A stretch of DNA of 64,000 nucleotides. It comes from an uncultured beta proteobacterium. Lineage in GTDB: Bacteria; Pseudomonadota; Gammaproteobacteria; Burkholderiales; Burkholderiaceae_C. The stretch covers positions 1-64,000 of the forward strand of contig CAIQOO010000011.1 of NCBI GenBank assembly GCA_903873485.1, read 5' to 3'. Position 1 is the first letter of the stretch. Every line of letters begins with the position of its first letter. Shown here in pieces: positions 2,493 through 23,402 of the stretch. Made by a program: the position numbers and the translations under genes. The notes beneath the pieces were generated by a model that did no database searches, was not told the origin of the DNA, and was given only the letters and a program-made list of their open reading frames with translations.

Positions 2493-3197
2493 ATGGCCAG
2501 ACTGGCGCGCCTGACGCTGCCCGACTATCCGCACCACCTGATTCAGCGCGGCAACAATCGCCAGGCCATTGTGGTCACGTCGGCAGACCATCTGCGGCTG
2601 CTGGAGCTGCTGGCAGAAAATGCCAAAAAATTCCAGGTGGCGATTCATGCCTATGTGCTGATGAGCAACCATTTTCATCTGCTGGCGACGCCAGCCACGG
2701 CCAATGGGCTGCCACAAATGATGCAGGCGCTGGGTCGCAGTTATGTGCGCTACTTCAATGCCAGCCAGCACCGCACCGGCACGCTGTGGGAGGGGCGCTA
2801 CAAGTCCACGGTAATCCAGTCCGAGCGCTATTTGCTGACCTGCATGGCCTACATTGACCTCAATCCGGTGCGCGCCGGCATGGTGGCGCGCCCGCAGGAC
2901 TACGCCTGGTCCAGCCATGCCCATTATGTTGGCCTGCGTGCCGACCGGCTGGTCACGCCGCATGCACTGTTTTGGGAACTTGGCAACACGCCGTTTGCCC
3001 GAGAAGCGGCTTACGCCGAAATGGTGCAAGCTGGCATCAACTCGGTGCAACAGGCGGCCTTGACCGCTGCCACTGTCAGCGGCTGGGCTTTGGGCGAAGC
3101 CGATTTTGTGGCAAATTTGCAAAAGAAGACACAGCGCCGTGTCAGCAAGGCTGCTGCCGGACGGCCTTTGCTGGCCAAAAACTTTAAGCCAAATTGA
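2493..3197 (+). CDS. REP-associated tyrosine transposase (RAYT, Y1_Tnp)
   Basis: A 234-residue single-domain Y1 transposase related to IS200/IS605 TnpA. The HUH motif is in VLMSNHFHLLATP (about residues 57-69) and the catalytic tyrosine is in ALGRSYVRYFN. LTCMAYIDLNPVRAGMV and DYAWSSH are RAYT signatures. RAYTs cut and join single-stranded DNA at REP-like hairpins. I chose the ATG at 2493; a TTG two codons upstream is an alternative. The gene is intact and sits inside the 21-bp inverted repeats described for the unit. Confidence 0.92.
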   Translation: MARLARLTLPDYPHHLIQRGNNRQAIVVTSADHLRLLELLAENAKKFQVAIHAYVLMSNHFHLLATPATANGLPQMMQALGRSYVRYFNASQHRTGTLWEGRYKSTVIQSERYLLTCMAYIDLNPVRAGMVARPQDYAWSSHAHYVGLRADRLVTPHALFWELGNTPFAREAAYAEMVQAGINSVQQAALTAATVSGWALGEADFVANLQKKTQRRVSKAAAGRPLLAKNFKPN

Positions 3198-3240
3198 CCT
3201 CTAGCCCTTATGGGTAAAGCGCTGATAGCTATCATTTTGA
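3196..3240. repeat. Dispersed palindromic repeat, copy 2
   Basis: CTCTAGCCCTTATGGGTAAA followed by GCGCTGATAGCTATCATTTT, directly after the transposase stop codon and inside the RAYT unit. Confidence 0.75.
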
Positions 3241-3309
3241 TTTGTCCCCAATATTTTCTCATTTTATTTTTTAGTCGATTAATTCGACTCTGACCCCAAT
3301 TAATTTGTT

Positions 3310-3325
3310 TGGCACTCTTGTTGCA
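3310..3325 (+). promoter_or_regulatory. Sigma54 (-24/-12) promoter of gltBD
   Basis: TGGCACTCTTGTTGCA matches the RpoN consensus TGGCAC-N5-TTGCA, with GG and GC exactly 10 bases apart. Transcription would start near 3336, about 33 bases before the gltB ATG. It begins 9 bases after the right end of the RAYT unit, so any enhancer that lay upstream is now roughly 1 kb away. No clear NtrC or NifA site was seen between the element and the promoter. Confidence 0.75.
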
Positions 3326-3368
3326 ATGCGGTAGAGTTACTTTTTTTGACACTTTTAGGAGCGCGCCA

Positions 3369-8099
<4,731 letters not shown>

Positions 8100-8124
8100 C
8101 GCCAAAATCTACAAGGAACACATC

Positions 8125-9591
8125 ATGGGAAAAATTACCGGTTTCATGGAGATCGAGCGCATTGAAGAGGGCTACAAACCAGTCCCCGAGCGCCTGAAAA
8201 ATTACCAGGAGTTTGTTATCGGACTGAGCGATGCGCAGGCGCGCCAGCAGGCGGCGCGCTGCATGGACTGCGGCACACCGTTCTGCAATAGCGGCTGCCC
8301 GGTCAACAACATCATTCCAGACTTCAATGATCTGGTCTATCAGGGCGACTGGAAGAACGCGATTGACGTGCTGCACAGCACCAACAATTTCCCCGAGTTC
8401 ACCGGGCGTATCTGCCCGGCACCTTGCGAGGCGGCCTGCACGCTTAATGTCAACCAGTTGCCGGTTGGCATCAAGTCGATTGAGCACGCCATCATCGACC
8501 GGGCCTGGACCGAGGGCTGGGTCAAGCCGCAGCCAGCCCGGCACCAGACTGGCAACAAGGTCGCGGTGGTCGGCTCCGGCCCGGCCGGCATGGCGGCCGC
8601 CCAGCAGTTGGCGCGGGTCGGCCATGCCGTCACCCTGTTTGAAAAAAATGACCGCATCGGCGGTTTGCTGCGTTATGGCATTCCTGACTTCAAGATGGAA
8701 AAATCCCATATCGACCGCCGAGTCGAGCAACTCAAGGCCGAGGGCGTGACGCTGCGCACCGGCGTGCTGGTGGGTGCCCTGCCCAAGGGCAGCAAGGTCA
8801 CCAACTGGGCCAAAGAAACCATTTCGCCCGAGCAACTTTGCAAGGAGTTTGATGCCGTTTTGCTCACCGCTGGCGCCGAACAATCGCGTGACTTGCCGGT
8901 GCCCGGTCGTGATCTGGACGGCATTCACTTTGCCATGGAGTTCCTGCCGCAGCAAAACAAGGTCAACGCCGGCGACAAGCTCAAGGGCCAGTTGCGCGCC
9001 GACGGCAAGCATGTGATCGTGATTGGCGGCGGTGACACCGGCTCAGATTGCGTTGGCACCAGCAACCGCCATGGCGCCGCCAGCGTCACCCAGTTTGAAG
9101 TGATGCCACAGCCGCCGGTGGAAGAAAACCGCCTGATGACCTGGCCCTATTGGCCGATGAAGCTGCGCACCAGCTCCAGCCACGATGAGGGCTGCACCCG
9201 CGAATTTGCCATTTCCACCCAGGAATTTATCGGTGAAAAAGGCAAGGTCACCGGTCTGAAAACGGTGCATATCGAGTTCAAGGACGGCAAACAGGTCGAG
9301 GTGGCGGGCACCGAGAAGACCTATCCCGCCGATCTGGTGCTGCTGGCAATGGGCTTTGTCAACCCGGTGGCCAGCGTGCTCGCGGCCTTTGGCATCGAGA
9401 AAGATGCGCGTGGCAATGCCCGGGCCAGTACCGATTTGATCGGTGGCTATGCCACCAATGTACCCAAAGTGTTCGCCGCGGGTGACGTGCGGCGTGGCCA
9501 GAGTCTGGTGGTGTGGGCGATTCGCGAAGGCCGCCAGGCGGCGCGCGCTATCGATGAGTTTTTAATGGGTTTCAGCGATCTGCCGCGTTAA
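8125..9591 (+). CDS. gltD: Glutamate synthase small subunit
   Basis: A 488-residue flavoprotein that passes electrons from NAD(P)H to GltB. The N-terminal domain has the two cysteine clusters [14 protein letters not shown] and CPAPCEAAC for 4Fe-4S centres, then the FAD-binding loop [15 protein letters not shown] and the NAD(P)H loop [11 protein letters not shown]; the C-terminal [26 protein letters not shown] closes the FAD site. It follows gltB by 25 bases with an AAGGAA ribosome-binding site, so the two form one operon. Length and motifs are normal. Confidence 0.97.
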
Positions 9592-9681
9592 GCCTTTGAC
9601 GGCAAGCGGTCTGCCGCAGCATCAGATTGATGCGTTTTGGCTGCTTTGATCGCCCAAGACTACCGGCGCAAGGCTGCCCAA

Positions 9682-11211
9682 TCACGCATAGCTCTTGTAA
9701 AAAGCCTCTGCCGTGAACTTTACAAATTCCTCGGTCTTGGCTTGGCTGCGGGCAATTACCTGCCAGGGTTCCAGACGCGCAATTTCGGTCTGCAAGTCCT
9801 TGGCTGTCTTGGCGCTACAACCCAAAATGTCTTGCACTGATCCGCCAGCCACACCATCACACGCAAAGATGTACGCAAATTCCAGCAATTCCTGAAAGTT
9901 GAAAAACTTCTGCTGGAAATCATTGGGCGACTGGCTGGCAAAAAACACCACCACACCTTTGGATCGCCCTTCGCGGATGATGCGCTGCAAAAACATGTTT
10001 CTCTGCCCCAGGTAATTGTGTGCCTCGTCAATGACCAGAATGGTTCGGATGGTTCTGCGGCCTTCCGTTACCGGGCTGTCAGGCAGCATCGCCATTTCTT
10101 TATAAAGCCGCTCAATTACCAGATAGGCCACCAGTTCTTTGAGCACCGGCATGGCATGCACGTCAATCAGCAGGGTTCGATTCGCCACCCGGTCCATTGG
10201 CGCGGCTTCAGTGCCGTGACTCCAAAATAGACCAAAGTCAGACAAATCGCGCAGCACTTCAATCAGGCTGTCGTCATTTTTGCCACCTGCCTCATAGGCC
10301 GCGTTGGCAGCTTCAAGAATGTCCGGAAAATCCGGGTAAGGCGTGGCCGAACCAGCCCGCTTGGCATAAGCGGCGCGAATCGCCTCGCTCAATGCGCCTT
10401 TTTGCACCACACCAAGTTTGCTGTTGATCGATGCAAAGCTCTCGGCTTTTTCACGCGCTGACACATTGATGGTCTGCTCGTCATAAGCTGGCAAGATAAA
10501 CGGATTGATCGGCAGGCTCTGCCCGCTTTGCAGCAGGCGAAACGCTTGAACCCGCGCCAGTTCCAGAAAACGGGCGTTTTCCACCACGTCGCCCTTGTAG
10601 TCAAAATAAATGAAATGGGTCTGGTAATTCGACTGAATGCGAATGTCGGTCAGTATCTTCAACAGAAACTGGGTTTTCCCGACACCCGGTTTGCCCATGA
10701 TGGCCAGATGCGAGTTGGCGTGCCGGGCGGTGTTGTTCAACTCCATCACCAACTCGGTGCGCTGCAACAGGCTGCGCCCGATAAAAATATCAAGTCCGCT
10801 GCCCAGTTGCTCACGCCGCCCGGCAAACTCCACCTCATCGACCAGCCGCCGAATCAGCGCCTCGCCACTGCGGCCAGTTTCCTGAAACATCTTTGCCAGC
10901 AGCGCGGCACCACTGTCAATGTGGTTCTTGACAATGGACCGATTGGAATAAAACTCGTCCTCGCTGAAATCCCGCTTGGTGTAGGTGTGCGCAATCAGGG
11001 TTCGCAGAAACACCTCGTCTTCGCCAATAAAGGTCGGCCTCTTCAGTTCGCCCCCGCTGAAACTCTGGCTGGCCGCCACACCGGCACCGTCTTTGACCAG
11101 CGACAGCGTGAAGGCGATGCGCGCCAGCGTTGCTTTTTCCAGCTTGGTCTCAAACCGCAGGGCGCTCAACACCTCATCGGCTTCGCTCGATGTGTAGAGG
11201 CGGTCAGCCAT
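9682..11211 (-). CDS. DndE-HerA fusion ATPase
   Basis: A 509-residue protein. Residues 1 to about 110 resemble the small Dnd protein DndE: LARIAFTLSL, then GGELKRPTFIGEDEVFLRTLI and IVKNHIDSGAALL align by eye with conserved DndE blocks. The rest is a HerA/DUF87-type hexameric translocase, with Walker A GKPGVGKT at 173-180, Walker B ILVIDEAH at 391-398 and a following REGRSKGVVVFFASQ sensor segment. HerA ATPases pump DNA and partner with nucleases. The gene is intact and overlaps the upstream DndD-like gene by 8 bases. DndE is normally a separate protein of about 110-130 residues, so the fusion is unusual. No DndB or DndC is present. Confidence 0.75.
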   Translation of the reverse strand: MADRLYTSSEADEVLSALRFETKLEKATLARIAFTLSLVKDGAGVAASQSFSGGELKRPTFIGEDEVFLRTLIAHTYTKRDFSEDEFYSNRSIVKNHIDSGAALLAKMFQETGRSGEALIRRLVDEVEFAGRREQLGSGLDIFIGRSLLQRTELVMELNNTARHANSHLAIMGKPGVGKTQFLLKILTDIRIQSNYQTHFIYFDYKGDVVENARFLELARVQAFRLLQSGQSLPINPFILPAYDEQTINVSAREKAESFASINSKLGVVQKGALSEAIRAAYAKRAGSATPYPDFPDILEAANAAYEAGGKNDDSLIEVLRDLSDFGLFWSHGTEAAPMDRVANRTLLIDVHAMPVLKELVAYLVIERLYKEMAMLPDSPVTEGRRTIRTILVIDEAHNYLGQRNMFLQRIIREGRSKGVVVFFASQSPNDFQQKFFNFQELLEFAYIFACDGVAGGSVQDILGCSAKTAKDLQTEIARLEPWQVIARSQAKTEEFVKFTAEAFYKSYA

Positions 11212-12878
11212 GATTTTTCTCCCAAAAGTAACCTTGCCTAAACGTCGTCAGCTCCTGGCGCTGGTCAAACTCCAGACTCGCCGCACCAGACAGGCGCGGT
11301 TTCAACGACCGGTAATAATTGGCATCAATCTCGGTGTCGGTCGAGAGAATGATCACCTGCTCACCCGCATTGGGAAAATAGTTGTTCACGATGTTGTCGC
11401 GGTGCGTGCTGTCCAGACGCGACAAGGGCGTGTCGATGATGATTGGCAGCTTGAGTTGGCTGGTTTGCGCCAGCCCCCACAGCAACGAAATCGCAAACAC
11501 CTCTTTTTCACCGGCAGACAAGGCTGATTTCCGAATTTCATGCCCGTTGCGGTCGATGATGTGAATCTCGTAGCTCTTGTCGTCGATGGTGATGTCCTTG
11601 ATCAATCCACTGCGGCTCGACAGCAGCCGGTACATCTCGAAGGTTTTTTCCTGCAACAGTTGCACCTTGTTTTTGCGCAGCCGCACGATGAACTGGTTGA
11701 GCACGCTGGCAATCGAATCGCACTCCTCGATAAAGTCTGCCTTGTCTTTCGACACGTTGTGCTTCTCGAACAGCTTTTCGATTTCGACCTCAATGTCGCT
11801 GATGCGCTTGGTCAAAGCCAAAATGTCTTCTTCCACCAGCCGCAGTTGCTCGGTCTTGCGCCCAATCTGGGTTGAGCAGCTTTCCATGGCACCCTGCAGT
11901 TCATCGAACAAATCGCGCTCGGTGGCCGACAAGCCGCCACTTTGGGCGACCCCTTCAAACTGGCGCACTTGCACCTCAAGGCAACGCACCTCCGATGCTA
12001 AAAGGCAAGGCTTTTTCGGACAAACCCCGAATTTCACTCTCTACCTGGGCCAGCCGGTTTGCGGCATGTACCCGCTTTTTTTCCTGCTCGCGCATCGCTT
12101 CACGCGACTCGGGTGCCATGTTGAAAGTCAGCTCAAAACGTTTTTTGGACTCCTCCAACTGCCCTTTGAAACCATCGAGTTCAGTGCGCAGGTTATCCCG
12201 CTCTTGGTGCTTGCGTGCCAGTTTGCTTTTTTCACGCTTGAGTTCGCTTTGCTTGAATTCCAGGTCTTCGTCCGAAATCTCGACAAAGCTTTTGCGCTCT
12301 TCTTGCTTGATATAGATGATGTCGCTTGCCAGGCGGTTGATGTACTGGATGCCTAAAGCCGCCTCCAGCGACGATTTCAATCGCACTTCGGAATGGTCAT
12401 CTGCTGCAATTTCCTGAATTTTTTCACCATCAAAGAAGAAAAACTGCGTGATTCCCGGTGGAATGGCGGCACGGATAAAGTTTTGCCAAATCTCCTGGTT
12501 TTGCACCGATACCCGCCGTCCGTCCTGCACCACCACCAGCCGCTCGGTCAGGTCGCGCGGCTTGGGGTCGCTGACCGCGCCTGCCGTCCAGGCGCGTTTG
12601 ACCACCAGTTCGGATGCATCGTCCATCTCGATCACCAGCTCAAAAGCCACGTTGGCATTGCCTTTAGCCTTCTCGCGCCGGTTGATGTTGCGATAAATTT
12701 CGTCGGTTTTCCCGCCGTAGAGGCAAAACGTGACCGCCTCCATGATCGAAGTTTTGCCCGCGCCGTTCATGCCGCCGATCAGAAAGATGCTGCGGCCATC
12801 GTCGCCCACGGGAAAGGCGATTTCAGTGGCGAACTGGAACGACTTGTAGTTGTCAAGGGTGAGTTTGCGGAATTTCAT
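11204..12878 (-). pseudogene. dndD: DndD-like SMC ATPase, frameshifted
   Basis: Two overlapping frames together encode one DndD-type ATPase. The 5' part (11976-12878) has Walker A GGMNGAGKT (residues 35-43), the DndD-like FFFDGEKIQEIA block and the first coiled coil. The 3' part (read to 11204) has the ABC signature LSAGEKEVFAISLLWGLA and Walker B LPIIIDTPLSRLDS. Removing one T from the TTTT run near 12000-12003 joins them into a 557-residue protein, slightly short for DndD. DndD is the SMC/Rad50-like ATPase of phosphorothioation systems. A homopolymer error in the sequence is as likely as a true mutation. Its start overlaps the upstream gene (ATGA) and its end overlaps the DndE-HerA start. 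Confidence 0.75.
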
Positions 12879-13510
12879 GAGCGCACCTCAGCTAATTCCC
12901 ACACGCCAGACTTTGAATCATTGCGGATCAACCCATCCCGGCACATTTGGAGCCGTTCCCACTGCACATTGTTCAGCCAGACCCGTGTTTTGCCATCTTG
13001 TCGGTATTCCAGATCACCCGCCAACAACTTGCCATCCAGAAATTTCGACAAATCAGCTTTGACCTCGGACACCGTGGCCCTGCCATGGCGTGACTCCAGC
13101 GACTGGATGATCAACAAGCGCAACTCTTCTTTGGAGGTTCTGGGCAGCTTGGAGCGTTTTTGCCGTGGTTTGACCTCTGCGCCTGAACCGTTTTGGCCCA
13201 GGCGCTCGCGCAGGTTTTTCAACAACTCGTCAAATTCATCGGCAAGCTGCGTCAGCATCTGTCGGCTCTCGGCAAAGCTGGCCAGTGCCAGCACCAAGCG
13301 GCTTTTTTCGGCGCGCAACATGTCTGGCACCGCCACGCCAGATTTTTCGAGCTGATCCACAGCTCGGGCAATCACTTTCAATTGCGCCTCTTGTTCTGCC
13401 ACCAGGGCCTCATCGGCAGTGACATCCAGGCGGTCGATCACATCCTGACACAGTTCGACCAACAGCCCTGGGTCTTTGGTAAAGCGCTCCATATCGTTGC
13501 TGTCACTCAT
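12875..13510 (-). CDS. Hypothetical protein of the DndD/HerA module
   Basis: A 211-residue protein I do not recognise. The first ~120 residues are acidic and helical, likely coiled coil (QEAQLKVIARAVDQLEKSG, QMLTQLADEFDELLKNLRERL). A basic linker (KPRQKRSKLPR) follows, then a C-terminal segment of about 75 residues (LLIIQSLESRHGRATVSEVKADL ... DLEYRQDGKTRVWLNNVQWERL) that reads like a winged-helix DNA-binding domain. The stop overlaps the DndD start in an ATGA, so expression is tightly coupled. It may be the DNA-binding or regulatory part of the module; that is inference. Confidence 0.65.
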   Translation of the reverse strand: MSDSNDMERFTKDPGLLVELCQDVIDRLDVTADEALVAEQEAQLKVIARAVDQLEKSGVAVPDMLRAEKSRLVLALASFAESRQMLTQLADEFDELLKNLRERLGQNGSGAEVKPRQKRSKLPRTSKEELRLLIIQSLESRHGRATVSEVKADLSKFLDGKLLAGDLEYRQDGKTRVWLNNVQWERLQMCRDGLIRNDSKSGVWELAEVRS

Positions 13511-13520
13511 GCTGGGTGCC

Positions 13521-13703
13521 TCACTGCGTCAGATGCCGGGGGCTCTTCAAGATTTCGCGCAGCGCGTCATAAACGCCGTTGCGTCGGTCCTTGAACTCGT
13601 ACTCGCGCACGGCATCAAGCAGCTTTAACACCTTGTCTGTGCGAACACCGTGCTGTTCGCACAGTTCTGCCAGCAGACGGCTATCTTCCAAAGTCATGTT
13701 CAT
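13521..13703 (-). CDS. Small protein of the DndD/HerA module
   Basis: A 60-residue, mostly helical protein (LLAELCEQHGVRTDKVLKLLDAVREYEFKDRRNGVYDALREIL). Its ATG overlaps the stop of the rhuM remnant (ATGA) and it ends 10 bases before the next gene, which argues for a real, co-translated gene despite its size. Small proteins of this kind occur beside Dnd-like and other DNA-modification gene sets, but I cannot assign a function. Confidence 0.6.
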   Translation of the reverse strand: MNMTLEDSRLLAELCEQHGVRTDKVLKLLDAVREYEFKDRRNGVYDALREILKSPRHLTQ

Positions 13704-14514
13704 GTTGTCTTCCCTGGGTTGTCATCGGTCAATTGCCGGGCAAACTGGTCAAAGTCACTGCCCGCGCGGGCTTTTTGATCGATTTGATGTCGATGATATT
13801 GTTCGTATTGACCTTCAGCCCGCTGCTGCGCCATCTCATGCGAAATTTTGCCTGCGTGGGTCAGGATGTCGCGGTCATTGATGTTCAAAAAGGCATCGAG
13901 TTTTTTGATCCAGTCGCCCATGTGCATGGCAATGCGGCGCATGGCCTGGCCTTCGGCAAAAATCAGATATTGCTCGGCCAGGTTGAGATGTCGGTGATTT
14001 TTTGGTAAAAGCGCCGCTCCGACGTGCGGATGTCCTGAATGCGGCGCGTCAGCTCTTCAAAATAGTCAAACGGCTGGTTCGGATTTTTCAGCCGCTCGTC
14101 ATCGAGTACAAAACCTTTGACGATGTATTCCTTCAGCCGCTGCGTGGCCCAGATGCGAAAGCGTGTGGCTACCGCGCTTTTGACCCGGTAGCCGACCGAG
14201 ATGATCATGTCGAGGTTGTAAAAATCGAGGTTTCGTCGCACCGAGCGGCCACCTTCTGCCCGAACTGTTAAGAATTTCTGAATAGTTGCCTCGGGCTGCA
14301 ATTCACCCTCTTCATACACGTTGCGGATGTGCATGCTGATGTTGGGTACCGAGGTCTGAAACAACTCGGCAATCAACTGCTGGGACAGCCACACGGTTTC
14401 GTTGGCCAGGCGCACATCAATCTTGATGCGGCCATCCTCGGCCTGATAGACCAGAAATTGCCCCATGGCTGGTGGCGACGGGTTCGGTGGCATAGGTGCG
14501 CTCCCTTGTTTCAT
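13700..14514 (-). pseudogene. rhuM: RhuM family protein, internally deleted
   Basis: The first 170 residues or so are a typical RhuM/KilA-like N-terminus (DVRLANETVWLSQQLIAELFQTSVPNISMHI ... FYNLDMIISVGYRVKSAVATRFRIWATQRLKEYIVKGF). After ERRFYQKITDI the frame is lost. The RhuM C-terminus (FAEGQAMRRIAMHMGDWIKKLDAFLNINDRDILTHAGKISHEMA) continues in another frame down to 13700. The middle domain of about 70-80 residues present in full-length RhuM (roughly 330 residues) is missing. RhuM genes are common cargo of Type I restriction loci. The 3' end still overlaps the next gene's start. Confidence 0.75.
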
Positions 14515-14529
14515 TTTTATACATCAAAT

Positions 14530-14582
14530 CAGGCTGTAGCCCTTATACCGCTTGCGTAATCAGCTATGCTTAACATAGCATT
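14530..14582. repeat. Dispersed palindromic repeat, copy 4
   Basis: AGGCTGTAGCCCTTATACCG, then CTTGCGTAATCAGCTATGCT and an AACATAGCATT tail. It fills the spacer between the DUF1016 and rhuM genes and resembles copy 5, including an AACATAG tail that the other copies lack. Confidence 0.7.
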
Positions 14583-14622
14583 CAGGATGACGGCATGGGC
14601 ATTGCCGGGTGACCAAGGCGGT

Positions 14623-15819
14623 CTATTCATGGCCCAACAACTCCAGCCGCTGTGCCTGCATGAACTGCTCCAGCGCCTGCCGTGACGGCAGCGCCACCTC
14701 ATATTTGGAGACAAACAGCCGGTTGTCGATGCTGGCGGTGGCGTACTGCACCAGCGCCTGGTCTTTGCCGGTACACAGCAGCAGGCCGACCGGCGGGTTG
14801 TCGCCCTCAATCATCATGTGCTGGCGATACCAGGTGACGTAGGTATTGAGCTGGCCCAAGTGTTCATGCTTGAAATCATCGACTTTGAGTTCCACCAGCA
14901 CATGGCACTTGAGAATGCGGTGGTAAAAAACCAAATCCACAAAGCCGCGTGTCTTGCCGATGACGATGCTCTTTTGCTGCGCCTCCAGTCAAAAGCCGTG
15001 ACCCAGCTCCAGCAAAAACTCGCGCAGGTTTTCGACCAGTGCCGCTTCCAGATCAGATTCGGCAACGGCATCTTTGGCGCGCAGGCCCAGAAATTCAAAA
15101 ATGTAGGGGTCGCGAATGGCAAGCTGTGGCTCGGCGGCTTCGATGCCCTTGTGCACCATTTCCGCCAGCTTTTCCTTGTCTTTGGACAGGCCGTATCGCT
15201 CAAAATACAAGGTGGCGATCTGGCGCTTGAGCGAACGCACCGACCAGTTGCCGCGAATGCACTCGATCTCGTAAAAAGCGCGTTTGAGCGGGTTGTCGAT
15301 CTCGATCAACTCGACAAAATGGCTAAACGACAAACTATCCCGGAGCTTTTTTCCGGGCAACGCCAATAGTGGAGACGGTGTCTCCACTATTGGCAAACCA
15401 GCCAGGTCATCTGATTGTCCGGTCACTGACTGGAAAAAGAAGGCTGGCTTCTGGCCCGCGCTCAATGGTGGCAACAGTGTCTCCATAATTTGCGGGTATG
15501 CCCGGTAAAACCGCTGATAGCGAAAAAGCTCGCGGCGATCACACCGGCTGATTTTGAGCCTGGTGAGTTCCTCGGCCAGTGCCGCAAGCAAACCCTCGCC
15601 ATACTTCGCCCGATCCACGCCCTTGAGTTCAAAGACGACGATGTGATACCCAATCATCCAATTGCGCAGTGTCAGCGTGGTGTTGACCACCCGGCTGACA
15701 GCGGCAGCGCTTTCCTCATGAATGCGCTGAATCGCCGACACCAGGGCGGCAAAATCCAGATCGCCGTCACCCGCCTCTTTGGTCGGTGCGGGTCGGCTGA
15801 CCGAGGATTTTTTATTCAT
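14623..15819 (-). pseudogene. DUF1016 (YhcG-like) nuclease with in-frame TGA
   Basis: The N-terminal part (14989-15819, 276 residues) carries the DUF1016 N-terminal domain (LVNTTLTLRNWMIGYHIVVFELKG-like segment, SRCDRRELFRYQRFYRAYPQI). It ends in LLELGHGF followed by TGA. Translation resumes in the same frame with LEAQQKSIVIGKTRGFVDLVFYHRIL and VELKVDDFKHEHLGQLNTYV, the PD-(D/E)XK nuclease core, down to 14623. The position corresponds to the residue after GF in the conserved GFAF motif, seen intact in the DUF1016 fragment at 63565-64000. Without readthrough the product lacks its nuclease. Confidence 0.85.
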
Positions 15820-16045
15820 CGCCCGGCATCGGTGCGCGCTGCGGCACCCGGTCCAGAATCGCCTGAAATGCGGCTGGGCTAGCGCGCTCAGCCCGGCTGC
15901 GCAAATAAGACTCGGCAGTCAATGCTGAAATTTTCTCAGTCACTGCCGTGATGATGAACTGAGACACCGGCACGCCATCCATATCGGCCATCTCCTGAAT
16001 GTGGCGTTGAACGGAATTGGGCAAAGTCAGATTCAAAGTAGTCAT
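15812..16045 (-). CDS. Antitoxin-like ribbon-helix-helix protein
   Basis: A 77-residue protein whose N-terminus (TTLNLTLPNSVQRHIQEMADMDGVPVSQFIITAVTEKISAL) has the strand-helix-helix pattern of ribbon-helix-helix DNA-binding antitoxins. Its start overlaps the stop of the PIN-domain toxin (ATGA), so the pair is toxin-first. Its 3' end overlaps the DUF1016 start by 8 bases. Confidence 0.7.
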   Translation of the reverse strand: MTTLNLTLPNSVQRHIQEMADMDGVPVSQFIITAVTEKISALTAESYLRSRAERASPAAFQAILDRVPQRAPMPGDE

Positions 16046-16488
16046 ATCAGCTCCAGTAGCATGGTTTTCGGGGTAATCACGTCAATGCCAAAGCGCACCG
16101 CTGGACGAAAATCTTTGGCGTTGAAAGTCACAATATGCGGCACTTGGGCGGCGACTGCCAATTCCAGCACCATGTCGTCTTTGGCATCGGGCAAGCAGGG
16201 TCGCCACAAAAAATAGACCGATTGAAACGCAGCCTGTGTGCACAAGTTGTCCAGTACGACATCCACTTGCGCATCGCTTAGACCCAGCTCGGGATGATGC
16301 CGTTTGAGCACATCCTCGTATTCAAACAGCAATGGGGTTGAAAGCGCGATGCGCACCTGTCCGCTGGCAATGGCCCTGAGCAACTGGTGTGACTTGCCGC
16401 TGGCTGAATACAAACCGGCATAAAGCACGTTGGTATCGAGCACGATGCGCGGCGGTGACTTTGATTTGGCTGCGGTGCTCACATTCAT
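16042..16488 (-). CDS. PIN-domain toxin
   Basis: A 148-residue PIN-family ribonuclease of the 'putative toxin-antitoxin system toxin component' group. Acidic metal ligands are visible in RIVLDTNVLYAGL, LPDAKDDMVLELAVAA and TFNAKDFRPAV. It is intact, unlike the other toxins in this window. It lies between hsdS and DUF1016 as cargo of the restriction locus and overlaps its antitoxin by 4 bases. The likely activity is RNA cleavage when free of antitoxin. Confidence 0.8.
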   Translation of the reverse strand: MNVSTAAKSKSPPRIVLDTNVLYAGLYSASGKSHQLLRAIASGQVRIALSTPLLFEYEDVLKRHHPELGLSDAQVDVVLDNLCTQAAFQSVYFLWRPCLPDAKDDMVLELAVAAQVPHIVTFNAKDFRPAVRFGIDVITPKTMLLELI

Positions 16489-16503
16489 GGTCTTTCATCA
16501 AAA

Positions 16504-16552
16504 CAGGCTGTAGCGCTTATGCTGCTTGCGTAGCTAGCTACGCTAAACATAG
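16504..16552. repeat. Dispersed palindromic repeat, copy 5
   Basis: CAGGCTGTAGCGCTTATGCT followed by GCTTGCGTAGCTAGCTACGC, in the spacer between hsdS and the PIN toxin. It is the closest relative of copy 4. Confidence 0.7.
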
Positions 16553-16621
16553 TGACAAAAAAAACCGCACGGGCCAGAACTTGATCAGTGCCGTGTTCGG
16601 AAGTGCTGGTCAGTGGACTGT

Positions 16622-17983
16622 TCATGGCTGGACGGCAGCCTCAATGAGTTGTTCAACGCGGGTTTTGGCTCTACACAATAAAGATTCGGACTCTCTTTTT
16701 GCCGCCCTATGCTGCATTAGAAAATGTTCTATTTCTTGTTGTCTTTGCCACTGAATTATTGGGATTGGAATTTGTGCTAACTGGCTCTGATTTAGTCGCT
16801 GTTGTACGCTACCTCGGCTATATCTAAGCATTTGCATCTGACCGTAAGTCGTGTTCAGCAAAAGATTTAGATAATTTGGAGAAATTTCGACCTTACTGTC
16901 TGTAGTTAACCGAATTCTAATTAAATTGTCACTAAAAAAAGACTCTGCTAACTCCTTCTCAACGATCCCACAAACGCCAATAGAGCCAACTCTCGTTACT
17001 AAAATGTCATCTTCTTTCGCTATAGAACTCAGTGTTGGTTTCAATGCACCGGTTTTCAAAATTGCCATATTCTCAATATATCCTGATTGAACGTCAGTGC
17101 CCCTTATATATGGAATGCCTTTTTCAGAATATGAGGAAGAATAAATTCCTGTTACTAGTTTTTCAGAAATGGTTTTAATGCGTTTATTTGGGTAATTCGC
17201 TGCAAGAGCATCCAACTGCTTGTACATCGGTTGAAAATAGTCTGCATCACAGCGGCGCGATGACTCCAACTCGCTGAATTGTGCGGCGTAGCCCACTGGC
17301 TTTTGGAATATCAGCTTGTCCAGACATAAAGCAGTGTTCAGAAGATTTTGCGCAGCGACATAGGCACTCAGTGTGTCACGCTGCTTGACGAAGGCAGCAT
17401 TCACAAGATTGGCAACCTCCTGTTGCAGAGAAAGACCAGGAAGATGAATAAGAATTTTGCGTACTTCTGATCCGCTAACGTTTGCCTGATTGATTGAGCG
17501 CATCGCGCGCCTTTTAATCTGGCCAATCCCAAACGATGTGTTCAGGAAAATCGTCAAAAACTCAGGCAGTAGCCGTGTGGCATCGGGAACAAGGTGGATC
17601 AGATACGACGCGAAAGTGCAATCGGTCTGATCTTTAACGATGCCAGTTCTACCGACAAATTCGAAAGAATTTGTTCGATTGAAAAGAACGTCATTTTCTC
17701 TAAGAGCACTGGAATTGAACTCGGTTTGCGAAATATTGGCAAATTTTGCTGGTCGCTGCGCGAAGCAGCCATCCAGCTCGTTCATACGGAAAATCGGAAA
17801 TCCTTGGCCGGCTGAATTCATGGAAATCGACAGGCCGTACTCGCACTTCTTCAATACACGTCCAATTGGCAGCCACTCGGTTCCAACGGCTGGCGCAAAC
17901 ACATAACGAGGATCAAAAAATTCCGCTGAAAAGCGATTGTGGGTAATAGCTTCACTAACCTGTACAAGGTTTATAGCGGCCAT
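16622..17983 (-). CDS. hsdS: Type I restriction specificity subunit
   Basis: A 453-residue HsdS with two target-recognition domains, each followed by a helical spacer (ASYLIHLVPDATRLLPEFLTIFLNT ... SINQANVSGSEVRKILIHLPGLSLQQEVANLVNAAF, then SDNLIRIRLTTDSKVEISPNYLNLLLNT ... SVQQRLNQSQLAQIPIPIIQWQRQQEIEHFL). The two recognition domains would define a bipartite target. The ATG at 17983 shares its A with the hsdM stop (TAATG), so this start is preferred over one 22 codons upstream. Base composition is clearly more AT-rich than its neighbours, as usual for recently acquired specificity genes. Intact. Confidence 0.9.
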   Translation of the reverse strand: MAAINLVQVSEAITHNRFSAEFFDPRYVFAPAVGTEWLPIGRVLKKCEYGLSISMNSAGQGFPIFRMNELDGCFAQRPAKFANISQTEFNSSALRENDVLFNRTNSFEFVGRTGIVKDQTDCTFASYLIHLVPDATRLLPEFLTIFLNTSFGIGQIKRRAMRSINQANVSGSEVRKILIHLPGLSLQQEVANLVNAAFVKQRDTLSAYVAAQNLLNTALCLDKLIFQKPVGYAAQFSELESSRRCDADYFQPMYKQLDALAANYPNKRIKTISEKLVTGIYSSSYSEKGIPYIRGTDVQSGYIENMAILKTGALKPTLSSIAKEDDILVTRVGSIGVCGIVEKELAESFFSDNLIRIRLTTDSKVEISPNYLNLLLNTTYGQMQMLRYSRGSVQQRLNQSQLAQIPIPIIQWQRQQEIEHFLMQHRAAKRESESLLCRAKTRVEQLIEAAVQP

Positions 17984-20767
17984 TACTTGTCGCTCCAAAA
18001 ATTCAACCCCTGCGCTTGCGCAAACCGGACAAACGCCTCCGCCACACACATCTGCTCATCAGGAATCTTGGCCGCATCCGCCAGATCAGCCGCACCCAGG
18101 TCGTAATTCACCAAATCCTGATCAATCACAAGCTGCCCTTCCTGCGGATGCCCGTCGGGGAATTCAACCAGGCTACCCTGGTCATCAAGCAGATGTTTGT
18201 AGTCGCCCGAGTTGTCCTTGCCACTGTTCTCGCTCACCGCCATAAAAATGGGGTAATCAAGCTGCTTGGCCACTTCGGCGGCAATCCAGCGTTCCTTGAG
18301 GGTGCCAATCAGCTCGTCATCGGCCAGCACCAGTTCCAGCTTGCCGCGCTGGCTCAGCAGTTTCAAGGCAGACTCGGCTTGCGGAATCTGCTTTTCCAGC
18401 CCCTTGATTTGCGCCTTGAACACTTTTTCCTGATCTTTGCGGGCGGCCTTCAACTTCTGGATGTCAATCTTGTAGGTGTTCTGCACATCCTTAATTTGAA
18501 GTTTCAGCGCTGCCTTGTCACCCGTCCAGCGAATCATCAGCGTGGCCACTTCCATGTCCTGCTTTTGCGCTAGGGCTTGGGCATCACTTTCCAGGTTCAT
18601 CAGCTTTTGCTTGGCCCATAGCAGGGTCGCCTTTAGCTCCCTCAACTTTTCTTCAGCCGCTGCCAGGCGGTCTTCTGCTTCTGTGGCTTCTGCGCCGTCT
18701 GATTCACTGGCAGCACCGCTGTCGTCCTCACTACTGGCAGACTCGTCTGGTTCGGGTTCGCTGAAGTTTTCGGCGATCAGGTCCGCCACCGCTTCAGGAA
18801 CGGCATCTTCCGGCACGTCAACATCCGTGGCATAAAGCGCCAACAGCGCCTGGATGTCGGCCTCGTAATCCGGGCAGGCACCAGCCACCTTGTCATGCAC
18901 CTGGGCAATCTGGTCAAGCTGGTCTTGCGTGTATTTCTGCACAAACAGCACCGAGGTTTTGGTGCCAGTGTGGGGTTTGAATGTGTTGGGGTGCAGGCCA
19001 ACCACCGCCAGCAGACGGGCTTTTTTCAGAATCCATTCCCGAATGAAGGCCAGTGATGAATTGTTGAACTTGCCCTGTGGCAGCACGATGGCGGCGCGGC
19101 CACCGGGCTTGAGCATTTTCAGGATGCGCTCGATAAACAGCACATCGCGCTCTTCTTTGGGGGCCTTGTCGTCACCAGCACGCTTCAGGGCGGGCCGGGC
19201 CAGCTCGTAGCGGGCCAGCATTTTGCGGTCTTTCATTTCACCCGCAAACGGCGGATTGGCCAGAATCACGTCGAATTTCAGCTCGTCAAAATACTCCCAG
19301 GCCTTGTCCTCATCCTTGAGCATTTCGCCATCCGGGATTTTTCTGGCGGTCAGTTTGGCTTGCCGAAGTTCGTGCATCAGCGCCTGGCCGGATGCGTTTT
19401 CATACCAGGTACGCGGGTCGAGGCTGCTGACATCCGGACCGAAAATTTTGGTGTGACCATCCCCGGCAATCAGCATCAAGGCGCGCGATGTTTTGGCAGC
19501 GCGATGTTTTGGCAGCGCGCTGCTCAAAGTCGATGCCCCACAGGTATTTGGCAGCATATTTGTGTTTGCGTGTTTCGCGCTGGGCGTTGTCTGTGGCGGG
19601 GTAACACCAATCCATGGCGTGCAGCAAAAAGCCGCCCGATCCACACGATGGATCCATCACATATTCGGTGCGTGTCGGGTTGAGCATGCGCACGCACATT
19701 TCAACGACGTGGCGCGGCGTGAAAAACTGGCCCTTTTTCTTTTTCGCCTCGGTTGGCAGCAGGTATTCAAAGGCATCGTCCATGATGCGCAGGTTGGAGC
19801 CCATCAGGCGCACACCTTCAAAGCGCCCAATACAAACCTGCAGGTGTCGTCGGGCCAGTTCGATGTCTTCACCGGGGCGGAAAATGCCTGGCCACTCTTC
19901 GCAGGCTTGGTGAAACAGGCTGTTAGTGCGGTCGTAAGTCAGGTCCGGGTCGGGCACGCCGGTTTTTGAATTCACCGCCTGGCCAAACTCGACCGTTTTG
20001 TCCTTGCGCACCTCGTCGGCCTGCTTTTCGTCCCAGATTTTGGCGAAGATCAGCTTGAAAATTTCGTTGAATTCATCCTTACCGCTGTCGGCCAGCACCA
20101 GTTCTTCCAGCCCCTGAATGATGTTTTTGAAATTGAATTCGCGCTTGAGTTGCAGCAGGGTTTTTTTTGCCTCCAGAACGTCTTTGGGCTCTTTGCCACG
20201 CTTGGGGATGTCAAACAGCGTGTCGTCAAACTGCGCCGGATAGGGCCGGTAAAGAATGATGCTGTCGGCTCCGTTGGACCACACCGCCACCGGCGCGCCC
20301 TTGGCGTTCATGTAACTTTTAAGCTGCTCAATGCCGTCCTTGCGCTTGGGCTTTTTGCATTCGACGATGATTTTTGGCGTGAGCTTGGTCGAGCTGGTAT
20401 AGACGATGATGTCAGCCGCCTTGGTGCCGACCTCGGTGCCAAACTGCACGCCCTTTTCCAGATCAATCTCGTCGGCCTGGTAGCCGTAATGTTGCATCAG
20501 CTTATAGACCCACAACTGACGAATGATCTCTTCAGGGGCTGACTTGCCGCCTTCGGCATACACCTGCACTTCCTCATTGCCGGTGGAAAACGGGATCAAG
20601 CTCTTCAGGTAGAACTTGACCTTGCCGGCATCTTTGCCAGTGCTGGCGGTCTTGGGGTAGATCGTGAGGATCTCGTGGATGGGTTTGCCGAGGTTTTCAA
20701 ACTCTGTGAGTTCAAACTTGACACCCGGCTCTTTGAAAATTCGGTCGATGAGTTCTTTGGTATTCAT
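17983..20767 (-). pseudogene. hsdM: HsdM fused to an HsdR_N-type nuclease domain; split by a 16-bp tandem duplication
   Basis: The N-terminal 19400-20767 frame has a PD-(D/E)XK restriction domain (Asp119 in KAADIIVY, Glu136 and Lys138 in IIVECKKPK), then the methylase domain with GQFFTPRHVVEMCV and SAM motif DPSCGSGGF. The second frame continues with FDVILANPPFAG (catalytic NPPF), FNNSSLAFIREWILKKARLLAVVGL and a coiled coil of about 100 residues to 17983. A 16-bp unit duplicated at 19483-19514 causes the shift. Deleting one unit restores FEQRAAKTSRALMLIAGDG and a protein of about 922 residues. It would methylate adenine with HsdS. The fused nuclease domain is unusual for a Type I M subunit. 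No HsdR is nearby. Confidence 0.85.
19483..19514. repeat. 16-bp tandem duplication in hsdM
   Basis: GCGCGATGTTTTGGCA occurs twice head to tail (19483-19498, 19499-19514), followed by a further partial GCGCG. One unit keeps hsdM in frame; two units shift it by one base. Confidence 0.95.
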
Positions 20768-21226
20768 GGTTTGCGAGTTGTCCCTTTGTTTCTGGCCAAA
20801 GCGCTTGTCGATGTCGCTGGCTTGGTTTTGGATGGCCGGCTGACCTAACGCCCAGTTCAGCTATCGCAATGCGCTTGCGTCCCCAATGTTTCCGAATCAT
20901 CACATCAATCAGGTCGGGAACAGAGCGGAAATGGTGCACTCTACAGCAAAGCACCGGGGCATCCGGCAGCTTCAAGGCAAGTTCGCAGGCGACACTTCCT
21001 GATGCTACAGTTTAAGTAGCTTCCTGCGCAGTATTGACAATGGCTACGGGCCTATTTTGGTAAAATTCAGCCGAGTCGCGGCACGGCTTGATGCCCAGGC
21101 ATGACAGTTTGAAACAGGGCACCTGAAAGCTTGCCATTTTCTTGGTGCTTATGACCCCAGCCTGGCAGCACGGCTCGCCCTTCAACTATGATCGAGCCGC
21201 CGGGATTTTCCCGGTCTCCCTTTTTT
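20768..21226. other. Divergent spacer between hsdM and mlaF
   Basis: About 460 bases without a supportable gene. It should hold the promoters of both the restriction locus (leftward) and the mla operon (rightward). A TTGACA at 21034-21039 and TAAAAT at 21061-21066 are present, but their 21-base spacing is poor. A repeat-like TTTAAGTAGCTTCCTGCGCA lies at 21011-21030. A leftward 87-codon frame (20712-20975) overlaps the hsdM start and is not convincing. Confidence 0.5.
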
Positions 21227-22045
21227 ATGGCACCAAATTCTTCTGAATCTCTTGTCGAACTGCGCCACCTTACCTTCGGCTATGGTGAGCGGGTCATTCT
21301 GGACGACGTTAGCCTGTCGGTGCCGCGTGGCAAGGTGACGGCGCTGATGGGTGCCTCGGGCGGCGGCAAGACCACCATCTTGCGCCTGATCGGCGGGCAA
21401 AACCGGGCGCAGTCCGGGCAGATGCTGTTTGACGGCCTGGATGTGACGCCGATGAACCAGCAGCAACTCTATGCGGCCAGGCGGCGCATGGGCATGCTGT
21501 TTCAGTTTGGCGCCTTGTTTGCCGACTTGTCGGCGTTTGACAACGTGGCGTTTCCGCTGCGAGAGCACACCGATCTGCCGGAACCTATGATTCGCGACAT
21601 CGTGCTGATGAAACTCAATGCGGTGGGCCTGCGTGGCGCGCGAGACCTGATGCCCAGTGACCTGTCTGGCGGCATGGCGCGGCGGGTGGCATTGGCGCGG
21701 GCGATTGCACTCGACCCCGAACTGGTGATGTACGACGAGCCATTTTCCGGGCTTGATCCGATTTCGCTGGCAATTTCGGCGGATTTGATTCGCAAGCTCA
21801 ATGACTCGATGGGCCTGACCAGCATTTTTGTCTCGCACGAACTCGAACAGACCTTTGCCATTTCTGACCATGTGATCATTTTGGCCAATGGCAAGGTCGC
21901 CACCGAAGGCACACCTGAGCAGGTGCGGCAAAGCAGCGACCCGCTGGTGTTCCAGTATGTCAATGCGCTGACCGATGGTCCGGTGCAGTTTCATTATCCA
22001 GGCCCGAGCGTGGCTGAAGATTTTGGTGCAGGAGTGCGGGCATGA
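21227..22045 (+). CDS. mlaF: Phospholipid transport ABC ATPase
   Basis: ATPase of the Mla inner-membrane complex that moves phospholipids between inner and outer membrane. Walker A GASGGGKTT, signature LSGGMARR and Walker B LVMYDEPFSGLD are present, with the switch histidine in VSHELEQT. I chose the ATG at 21227 because homology starts at SLVELRHLTFGYG; an in-frame ATG at 21188 is possible, and neither has a clear ribosome-binding site. The end overlaps mlaE by 4 bases. First gene of an mlaF-E-D-A-C-B operon. Confidence 0.92.
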   Translation: MAPNSSESLVELRHLTFGYGERVILDDVSLSVPRGKVTALMGASGGGKTTILRLIGGQNRAQSGQMLFDGLDVTPMNQQQLYAARRRMGMLFQFGALFADLSAFDNVAFPLREHTDLPEPMIRDIVLMKLNAVGLRGARDLMPSDLSGGMARRVALARAIALDPELVMYDEPFSGLDPISLAISADLIRKLNDSMGLTSIFVSHELEQTFAISDHVIILANGKVATEGTPEQVRQSSDPLVFQYVNALTDGPVQFHYPGPSVAEDFGAGVRA

Positions 22046-22824
22046 GTTGGTACAAACCAGCCGATATCGGCTTTGCGGCGCGCCGCCAGCTTGCTGACCT
22101 GGGGCAGGGTGCGCGGCTGTTTGTGCGCCTGTTGACAACGCTGGTGCCGGCTTTCAGGCGCTTTGGGCTGATTCGCGACCAGATTCATTTTTTGGGCAAT
22201 TACTCGCTGGCCATCATTGCTGTGTCGGGTTTGTTCGTCGGTTTTGTGTTTGGCTTGCAGGGTTATTACACCTTGCAGCGCTATGGCTCATCTGAGGCAC
22301 TGGGCTTGCTGGTGGCGCTGAGCCTGGTGCGCGAACTAGGTCCAGTGGTGACGGCCCTGCTGTTTGCTGGTCGCGCCGGCACGTCGCTGACCGCCGAGAT
22401 TGGCCTGATGAAGGCCGGCGAGCAAATAAGCGTGATGGAGATGATGGCGGTGGACCCGGTGTTGCGCATTCTGGCACCCCGGTTCTGGGCTGGCATCATC
22501 ACCATGCCCTTGCTGGCCGCCGTCTTCAGTGCCATGGGCATCATTGGCGGCTGGGTAGTCGGGGTGCTGATGATCGGTGTTGATTCCGGTTCGTTCTGGA
22601 GCCAGATTCAGGGTGGTGTCGATGTCTGGCAGGATGTTGGTAACGGCATCGTCAAAAGCGTGGTGTTCGGTTTTACCGTCACCTTTGTCGCGTTGCTGGA
22701 GGGTTTTGAAGCGCAGCCGACCCCCGAGGGCGTGGCCAGTGCCACCACCCGTACCGTGGTGACCGCATCGCTGGCCGTGCTGGGTCTGGATTTCATCCTG
22801 ACGGCCTTGATGTTCACGATTTGA
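22042..22824 (+). CDS. mlaE: Phospholipid transport permease
   Basis: A 260-residue MlaE-family permease with several hydrophobic helices and the family segments LVRELGPVVTALLFAGRAGTSLTAEIGLMKAGEQISVMEMMAVDP and DVGNGIVKSVVFGFTVTFVALLEGF. It forms the membrane core to which MlaF and the MlaD hexamer attach. It overlaps mlaF (ATGA). Confidence 0.93.
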   Translation: MSWYKPADIGFAARRQLADLGQGARLFVRLLTTLVPAFRRFGLIRDQIHFLGNYSLAIIAVSGLFVGFVFGLQGYYTLQRYGSSEALGLLVALSLVRELGPVVTALLFAGRAGTSLTAEIGLMKAGEQISVMEMMAVDPVLRILAPRFWAGIITMPLLAAVFSAMGIIGGWVVGVLMIGVDSGSFWSQIQGGVDVWQDVGNGIVKSVVFGFTVTFVALLEGFEAQPTPEGVASATTRTVVTASLAVLGLDFILTALMFTI

Positions 22825-22907
22825 TGCAATGAAAATTGGCGGGCCGGCTGCAGCGTGGTGCAGGTCAGGCATGGCCGCAGTTCCCCTATTGATTTTGAGA
22901 GGAAGTT

Positions 22908-23402
22908 ATGCAACGTTCGAAAAATGATGTCTGGGTCGGCCTGTTTGTGCTGATCGGGGCGGTGGCGATTCTGTTTTTGGCCCTGCAGTCGGCCAATTTG
23001 CTGAGTCTGAGTTTTCAGAAAACCTACCCGGTCAAGGCGAAATTTGACAATATCGGCGGTGTCAAGCCCAAGGCCGCCGTGCGCAGTGCCGGGGTGGTGG
23101 TGGGCCGGGTGGAAAGCATCGTGTTCAGCGACCAGACCTTTCAGGCGGTGGTGACGCTGGCGATGGAAGGCCGTTACGCCTTTCCCAAGGACAGTTCGCT
23201 CAAAATATTGACCAGCGGTTTGCTCGGCGAGCAGTACCTCGGGATCGAGCCGGGTGCCGACGAAAAGATGCTGGTAGCCGGTGACACCATTTCGAGCACC
23301 CAGTCGGCGGTGGTACTGGAAAACCTGATCAGCCAATTTTTGTTCAACAAGGCGGCCGATGGCAGCAATATTGATGCGAGTTCCTTAAATGAAAAAAAGT
23401 AA
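22908..23402 (+). CDS. mlaD: MCE-domain lipid transport protein
   Basis: A 164-residue MlaD with one N-terminal membrane anchor (VGLFVLIGAVAILFLALQ) and a single MCE domain (YPVKAKFDNIGGVKPKAAVRSAGVVVGRVESIVF ... LLGEQYLGIEPG). It forms the periplasmic hexameric lipid channel of the complex. A GAGAGGAAG ribosome-binding site precedes the ATG, and the 3' end overlaps mlaA by 14 bases. Confidence 0.93.
   Translation: MQRSKNDVWVGLFVLIGAVAILFLALQSANLLSLSFQKTYPVKAKFDNIGGVKPKAAVRSAGVVVGRVESIVFSDQTFQAVVTLAMEGRYAFPKDSSLKILTSGLLGEQYLGIEPGADEKMLVAGDTISSTQSAVVLENLISQFLFNKAADGSNIDASSLNEKK

Follow-up and report, generated by a model that had tools for sequence, protein, structure and literature searches.

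Here, the window is the whole 64,000-nucleotide (nt) stretch of DNA that was analyzed (contig CAIQOO010000011.1, positions 1 to 64,000), and its locus at 9682 to 20767 raises the question of whether a methylase, a specificity (S) subunit, a DndD-like ATPase, and a DndE-HerA fusion encoded together constitute a single system or two neighbors. A first-pass annotation made from the sequence had taken the locus for a Type I-like system whose HsdR motor may have been replaced by the ATPase and the fusion protein. All of the locus genes are on the minus strand, exactly where that annotation had placed them (Table 1). On balance, we regard the locus as one coupled, horizontally moving restriction-modification system. 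The linked genes for the methylase-nuclease (the restriction-modification, or RM, subunit), S, Sp-DndD, a protein of the 211-residue family, DndD, and DndE-HerA are referred to below as the module, which is probably a defense against invading DNA.

When genome_contigs (84,980 species, each represented by one genome) was scanned with three aligned DndE-HerA proteins as the query, 51 loci with a DndE-HerA relative were obtained. Their hosts belong to Pseudomonadota, Thermodesulfobacteriota, and Bacillota and also include metagenome-assembled genomes labeled Planctomycetota, Acidobacteriota, Kiritimatiellae, and Chrysiogenales, labels that may be wrong. Order and strand are largely constant, and the genes are adjacent or overlapping; since many loci from several phyla share this order, chance or artifact is ruled out as its source. 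In Methylotuvimicrobium buryatense 5G (L021/L042), the genes for RM, S, part of RhuM, Sp-DndD, the 211-residue protein, DndD, and DndE-HerA follow one another in this order, and all of them apart from the partial RhuM gene are open. Many loci are cut by contig ends; linkage was counted in the 32 that have at least 5.8 kb upstream: RM is present in 24 of these and an S gene was detected in 21, the latter number being a lower bound because S genes diverge. Within the same set, RM accompanies 20 of the 24 modules with a DndD of at least 600 amino acids (aa) and a DndE-HerA of at least 480 aa. Among the loci without RM, L059, L063, L071, and L074 have a damaged or partial module, and L033 keeps a remnant of the RM start. 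Among 398 genomes of the phylum to which the window belongs, a close DndE-HerA occurs only in the window's own genome (eight others, 23% to 36% identity), as does an RM match of at least 59% identity (12 others, 30% to 46%). Of 369 genomes of the class, four have Sp-DndD (PF20306): that of the window, that of the M. buryatense locus, and those of L023 (a module without RM upstream, on a contig as long as that of L057) and L022 (a locus with DndC).

If the first-pass annotation was right, the module should mostly lie beside a methylase and S rather than beside dndC or hsdR, and the linkage counts agree, as far as an EcoKI-type hsdR is concerned. A single-sequence phmmer search with three DndC queries, one DndB query, DptF, DptG, and one HsdR type (EcoKI) gave no match in any of the 51 loci or among the open reading frames (ORFs) of the window. 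The same search detected Massilia DndD in 43 loci, DptH (its HerA part) in 50, and DndE in none, so single-sequence queries do miss diverged relatives. Genome-wide searches covered the genomes of 50 of the 51 loci (all except L068). HsdR exceeded the TIGR00348 cut-off in 33 of them, and among the matches listed, none lay within 100 kb of RM on the same contig. Ten genomes had no HsdR match at all, five of which (G759, G771, G772, G775, and G792) carry RM at at least 59% identity. DndC exceeded its cut-off in six of the 50, at distances of 333 and 412 kb in the two for which a distance could be read; at an E value of 0.001, the DndC model also matched 5 of 14 control genomes, none of them over the cut-off. 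The 60 flanking unassigned ORFs of at least 500 aa, which are unrelated to each other, were combined into a mock alignment for scanning, and among the best 25 of 131 families ResIII occurred in two ORFs; a recheck of 9 of the 60 did not meet the two carriers. At L059, the upstream DNA encodes a Type III-like methylase and a fragment of ResIII.

The RM subunit itself points to a type of enzyme for which no HsdR is expected. In a profile search against the PDB, its best match was RM.BsaXI (E = 1.3e-43, profile positions 231 to 655, i.e., the connector and the methylase part), and the three best Foldseek matches of its AlphaFold model (mean predicted local distance difference test [pLDDT] value, 76.1; predicted template modeling [pTM] score, 0.60) were all BsaXI, with 20% to 22% identity in the structural alignments. 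This enzyme belongs to Type IIB; it is assembled from two RM chains plus a single S chain and has no HsdR, and its long helical paddle has been implicated in cleavage by mutations (PMC11997821, accessible part). In the model of the module protein, two long helices are predicted near the C terminus, where BsaXI has this paddle (residues 685 to 745 and 750 to 812; pLDDT, ~74 to 85), and they may be its counterpart. Thus, the module "HsdM" resembles BsaXI in its N-terminal PD-(D/E)xK domain, helical connector, and N6 methylase and perhaps in these helices, with nuclease and methylase in one chain and S in another, and it differs in being linked to DndD, DndE-HerA, and Sp-DndD. The idea of a Type I system with a substituted HsdR motor was consequently not borne out. 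The other part of that idea, a nuclease carried on the methylase, held: the catalytic D is kept in 21, E in 22, and K in 21 of the 22 RM sequences compared (several truncated at a contig end), and the methylase motif NPPF in all 22. Specificity_I models match both halves of the window hsdS, as befits a separate subunit with target-recognition domains. Mean pairwise identity is 32% for S, 71% for RM, and 76% for DndE-HerA, as would be expected if target specificity diversifies. A Mrr-like nuclease gene stands directly before RM in Bowmanella sp. JS7-9 (L052, 2779 to 3699), where no member of the 211-residue family was found.

In the RM tree, the 19 module proteins form one clade (support, 100/100) on a long stem, apart from 16 relatives from outside the module, several of which have very long branches; L043, L049, and L060 and, of the other loci, L081 to L084, L087, L108, and L114 were left out of this tree. 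RM distances correlate with DndE-HerA distances (r = 0.63, n = 21, P = 0.001), and DndD distances do so more strongly (r = 0.85, n = 31). The correlations of RM with Sp-DndD (r = 0.29, n = 19) and with the 211-residue gene (r = 0.26, n = 11) are weak, and RM shows no clear correlation with RhuM (r = 0.19, n = 9, P = 0.12). These sets were built from ORFs above set lengths (22 RM, 34 DndE-HerA, and 33 DndD sequences from the 51 loci).

The Dnd character of the motor genes is clear from the window proteins. DndD contains an AAA_23 ATPase domain (Pfam) and is matched in both halves by TIGR03185, and the DndE domain of DndE-HerA was identified by PF08870 (40.9 bits against a cut-off of 25), next to a HerA/DUF87 match. 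The small Sp-DndD protein ties the module further to the sulfur systems. In 20 of the 50 locus genomes, TIGR03183, the model for DndC, has a match by its last 52 to 86 positions alone (E = 3e-5 to 1e-3), and in G765 and G789, the two of the 20 that were checked, the coordinates of this match are those of the Sp-DndD gene. In Massilia DndC, the same tail segment is fused at residues 445 to 480 (E = 4.5e-5), whereas in the Methylorubrum extorquens AM1 megaplasmid (L014) and in L022 the tail forms an ORF of its own, located between DndC and DndD (E = 3e-4 and 8e-5, respectively). From these tail-only matches and the fused and separate forms, Sp-DndD is, by homology, a stand-alone relative of the DndC tail. 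We propose that it docks the modifying enzyme to DndD. Both L014 (6428 to 11428) and L022 (6086 to 11148) have, in order, a short DndC, a Sp-DndD-like ORF, DndD, and DndE-HerA, and as such they represent sulfur-type relatives of the module; their DndE-HerA proteins are 28% and 23% identical, respectively, to that of the module.

The 211-residue family combines a constant N terminus with alternative C termini. A profile of the N terminus of the window type matched 32 of the 2,027 ORFs across the 51 loci, and no other at an E value of up to 1. The matches fall into three C-terminal groups of 19, 7, and 6, comprising a Mrr_N-like winged helix (below the Pfam cut-off), RAMA (above the cut-off in two of three members scanned), and a third type for which two scanned members gave no Pfam match. 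The C-terminal profile of the window type (type A) had two additional weak matches, one of them to a Mrr-like protein (E = 0.06 and 0.25, respectively). In six loci, the family is present in two or three copies, and third-type copies occur downstream of DndE-HerA in L036, L037, L039, L045, L063, and L065. The model of the L042 member (pLDDT, 83.9; pTM, 0.42) has a helical N terminus and a C-terminal part of helices and strands; Foldseek returned nothing for it at an E value of 0.001 or below, the best match being a cullin-3 homologue (0.041), followed mostly by winged helices. RAMA has been suggested to be a reader of adenine methylation, but one protein that was examined could not be confirmed to prefer methylated DNA (PMC11037411, accessible part). 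On the basis of these domains, we propose that the family is an exchangeable DNA reader that tunes what counts as foreign.

How might such parts work together? The BsaXI-like RM subunit and S would mark host sites, presumably by N6-adenine methylation, and RM would also carry the nuclease. The ABC ATPase DndD and DndE-HerA, the latter combining a DNA-binding DndE domain with a HerA translocase, may scan or move DNA, and their complex could bring DNA to the RM nuclease, or activate this nuclease, at unmarked sites in a step probably gated by ATP. Sp-DndD would serve as the dock for the modifying enzyme on DndD; the reader would come from the 211-residue family. The expected targets would be phages and plasmids.

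The alternative that survives best, and which we consider rather unlikely, is that two systems share one island, a self-sufficient Type IIB enzyme made of RM and S and an independent DndD/DndE-HerA defense. Type IIB enzymes, which cut on both sides of their site, are known to work without ATPase subunits. The BsaXI assembly likewise consists of RM and S only (PMC11997821, accessible part). Of the 12 RM relatives of 30% to 46% identity found in the phylum outside the module, 11 adjoin an hsdS-like gene and none adjoins a DndD match. Conversely, L037, L056, and L057 have an otherwise full-length module with no RM beside it, and no RM match was found at an E value of 1e-20 anywhere in the genomes of L037 and L057, so that the motor may act by itself or with different partners. 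These three loci weigh against coupling, as do several further points. The BsaXI profile match does not include the nuclease. Searched by itself, the nuclease domain found nothing but BsaXI, at a weak E value of 0.046, and the catalytic D and ExK line up in this match; the fold matches to BsaXI have TM scores of 0.35 to 0.45 and root mean square deviations of 16 to 25. Even a cargo gene, RhuM, shows correlated distances, both to DndD (r = 0.62, n = 13) and to DndE-HerA (r = 0.73, n = 12), and correlation alone therefore does not show function; moreover, the distance correlations ignore host phylogeny and were computed from untrimmed sequences. The 211-residue family is present in only 25 of the 51 loci (many of them truncated), and the dock and reader roles have homology as their sole basis. 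What argues against two independent systems is that the module RM proteins form one clade with a long stem, that the gene arrangement is largely conserved and tight, that RM and DndE-HerA distances correlate, and that a DndC-type tail persists at loci where searches revealed no DndC.

It is also conceivable, if improbable, that DndD, DndE-HerA, and Sp-DndD serve modification, carrying RM and S along the DNA to methylate it while the nuclease acts alone. The match of Sp-DndD to the DndC tail would fit, by analogy with DndDE serving a sulfurtransferase, and distant DndE-HerA proteins do sit with DndC in two loci. Against it, BsaXI-like methylases are not known to need a motor. In the accessible part of PMC10853773, the DndDE core is proposed to recruit other modifications, which favors this view, whereas HerA/FtsK proteins are proposed there to intercept invading DNA, which speaks against it. 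Membership of the module in MADS (methylation-associated defense) is very improbable because, although RM, S, and HerA match the mad2, mad5, and mad8 models, the NCBIfam MAD2 scores on the two window RM pieces (133 and 113 bits; cut-off, 720) and the MAD5 score on the window piece (118 bits; cut-off, 400) are low, intact RM scores 494 bits with another Type I methylase model and 103 with mad2, and the matches listed for the module genes (PADLOC, best 25 families for RM, S, and DndD; NCBIfam, full lists) include no other MADS component.

The coupled system that we favor shares features with several known systems and is identical to none of those compared here. Like the DndCDE phosphorothioation systems of the DndE-HerA form, such as L014 and L022, it has DndD beside a DndE-HerA fusion and a small Sp-like ORF; unlike them, the module loci have no DndC or DndB match and contain a methylase-nuclease and S instead. 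In CxC-DndE (Pbe), a Dnd-type ATPase and DndE also recruit a base methylase, but these are C5- or N4-cytosine methylases accompanied by an HKD nuclease-helicase (PMC10853773, accessible part), whereas in the module RM is of the N6 type and carries a nuclease itself, and HerA is fused to DndE. Classical Type I systems have in common with the module the methylase, S, and typical cargo genes, and differ in that the module nuclease is fused to the methylase and no HsdR was found at the loci. According to PADLOC and NCBIfam models, MADS has a methylase with an HSDR_N-type domain, an S subunit, and a HerA ATPase in common with the module; the MADS-like locus L112 contains SspF-like, mad7-like, and DndH-like genes where the module has DndD and DndE-HerA. 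At 2901 to 15531, L112 encodes an SspF-like ATPase, a mad7/SspG-like protein, an HSDR_N-type methylase, S, and a 1,756-aa DndH/mad8-like HerA protein. With its related methylase and S, this locus indicates that such methylases may have been paired with Dnd-type motors more than once.

The first-pass annotation had considered the locus to be a candidate for an undescribed defense system. In part this stands, since we found no description of RM and S with DndD and DndE-HerA in the literature on Dnd-type genes with a methylase or HerA, as far as it was accessible, and the words HsdM and HsdS are absent from the main text of PMC10853773 in its accessible form; an earlier description is possible. 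In part it does not, since DndE-HerA next to DndD was described in 2024 as the "clade-3" form of DndCDE (PMC10853773, accessible part). New here are the single RM clade, the match between Sp-DndD and the DndC tail, and the three C termini of the 211-residue family. Tentatively, and with less confidence than we place in coupling as such, the module could be considered a separate class of ATP-gated restriction in which a BsaXI-like methylase-nuclease has replaced the sulfurtransferase on DndD/DndE-HerA and is held there by the stand-alone DndC tail, and an exchangeable reader (winged helix, RAMA, or third domain) sets the targets. If so, the Dnd scanning core would be a general platform that accepts different self-marks, and Type IIB restriction enzymes would be linked with the Dnd sulfur systems. 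It would also provide a natural test of the role of DndD and DndE, which would be paired here with a methylase rather than a sulfurtransferase and whose role would thus be separable from sulfur chemistry. The modifying enzyme and DndD may touch each other, as the free-standing DndC tail hints, and the swappable C termini of the 211-residue family offer a handle on possible target choice.

The copy of the locus in the window is decaying, which the first-pass annotation had overlooked, and intact copies exist in other bacteria. Four genes are broken (hsdM, DUF1016, RhuM, and DndD), which rules out an intact system in this genome: hsdM and DUF1016 are each read in two frames, and DndD and RhuM have lost internal segments compared with their relatives (Table 1). 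The hsdS, Sp-DndD, 211-aa, and DndE-HerA genes are still open. The locus is part of an acquired island (9592 to 21187), as all 12 of the other same-genus genomes that were examined (G797 to G808) lack it at the gltD-mlaF site. In these, the aligned start of MlaF is at most 104 nt from the end of GltD, whereas in the window the two genes are separated by the entire locus. No tRNA gene was found at 8000 to 23000. Carriage of the module by phages or plasmids was considered and rejected: 37 stretches in viral_contigs matched a pattern, none of them a relative, and the 17 plasmid records that matched were all below 60% identity, none covering 80% of the query.

Table 1. Genes and other features of the locus in the window
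Feature	Coordinates	Strand	Description
RM subunit ("hsdM")	17983..20767	-	PD-(D/E)XK (HSDR_N_2), N6 methylase (N6_Mtase), and long C-terminal part
hsdM frame pieces	19400-20767 and 17983-19644	-	Two frames; intact relatives elsewhere
hsdS-like specificity subunit	16622..18049	-	475 aa, open; Methylase_S (Pfam); Specificity_I models, mad5-like
Cargo cassette between hsdS and RhuM	14510..16552	not assigned	Imperfect 69-nt direct repeats at both ends
PIN gene in cassette	16042-16488		PIN_3 (Pfam)
RHH gene in cassette	15812-16045		
DUF1016 gene in cassette	14623-15819		Frame-broken; DUF1016_N/YhcG_C (Pfam)
RhuM-family gene	13700..14514	-	RhuM (Pfam); ~240-bp internal deletion, split frame
Sp-DndD	13521..13703	-	60 aa; PF20306; resembles DndC C-terminal tail
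211-aa protein	12875..13510	-	Helical N terminus and Mrr_N-like winged helix; type A of the family
DndD-like ABC/SMC ATPase	11204..12878	-	Pieces 11976-12878 and 11204-12037; ~340-bp mid-gene deletion, frame break
DndE-HerA fusion	9682..11211	-	509 aa, intact

The PIN/RHH/DUF1016 cargo is flanked by two copies of the direct repeat (14510 to 14578 and 16484 to 16552), which are 80% alike. The core of the repeat has two matches in the window, both at these sites, where none would be expected by chance, and the repeat may mark the insertion of the cassette. In L024, the match on one side of the cassette stops at 6148 and that on the other side starts at 6161, and the cassette is thus absent from that locus.

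A recurrent additional effector beside the module was sought by clustering the unassigned ORFs and was rejected, as no family occurred in more than six loci. The larger clusters comprised chemotaxis-like and response-regulator-like ORFs (both by eye), members of the 211-residue family with other C termini, and macro-domain/DarT genes. The DarT and macro-domain genes, a DarTG-type pair, occupy the cargo position before Sp-DndD in L037 (5383 to 7028), L043 (4046 to 5757), and L060 (7653 to 9365), the assignment being based on Pfam for L037 and on clustering for the other two. Right after DndE-HerA, L027 (11611 to 12903), L028 (10303 to 11775), and L071 (11058 to 12500) have related ORFs on the opposite strand that look integrase-like by eye.

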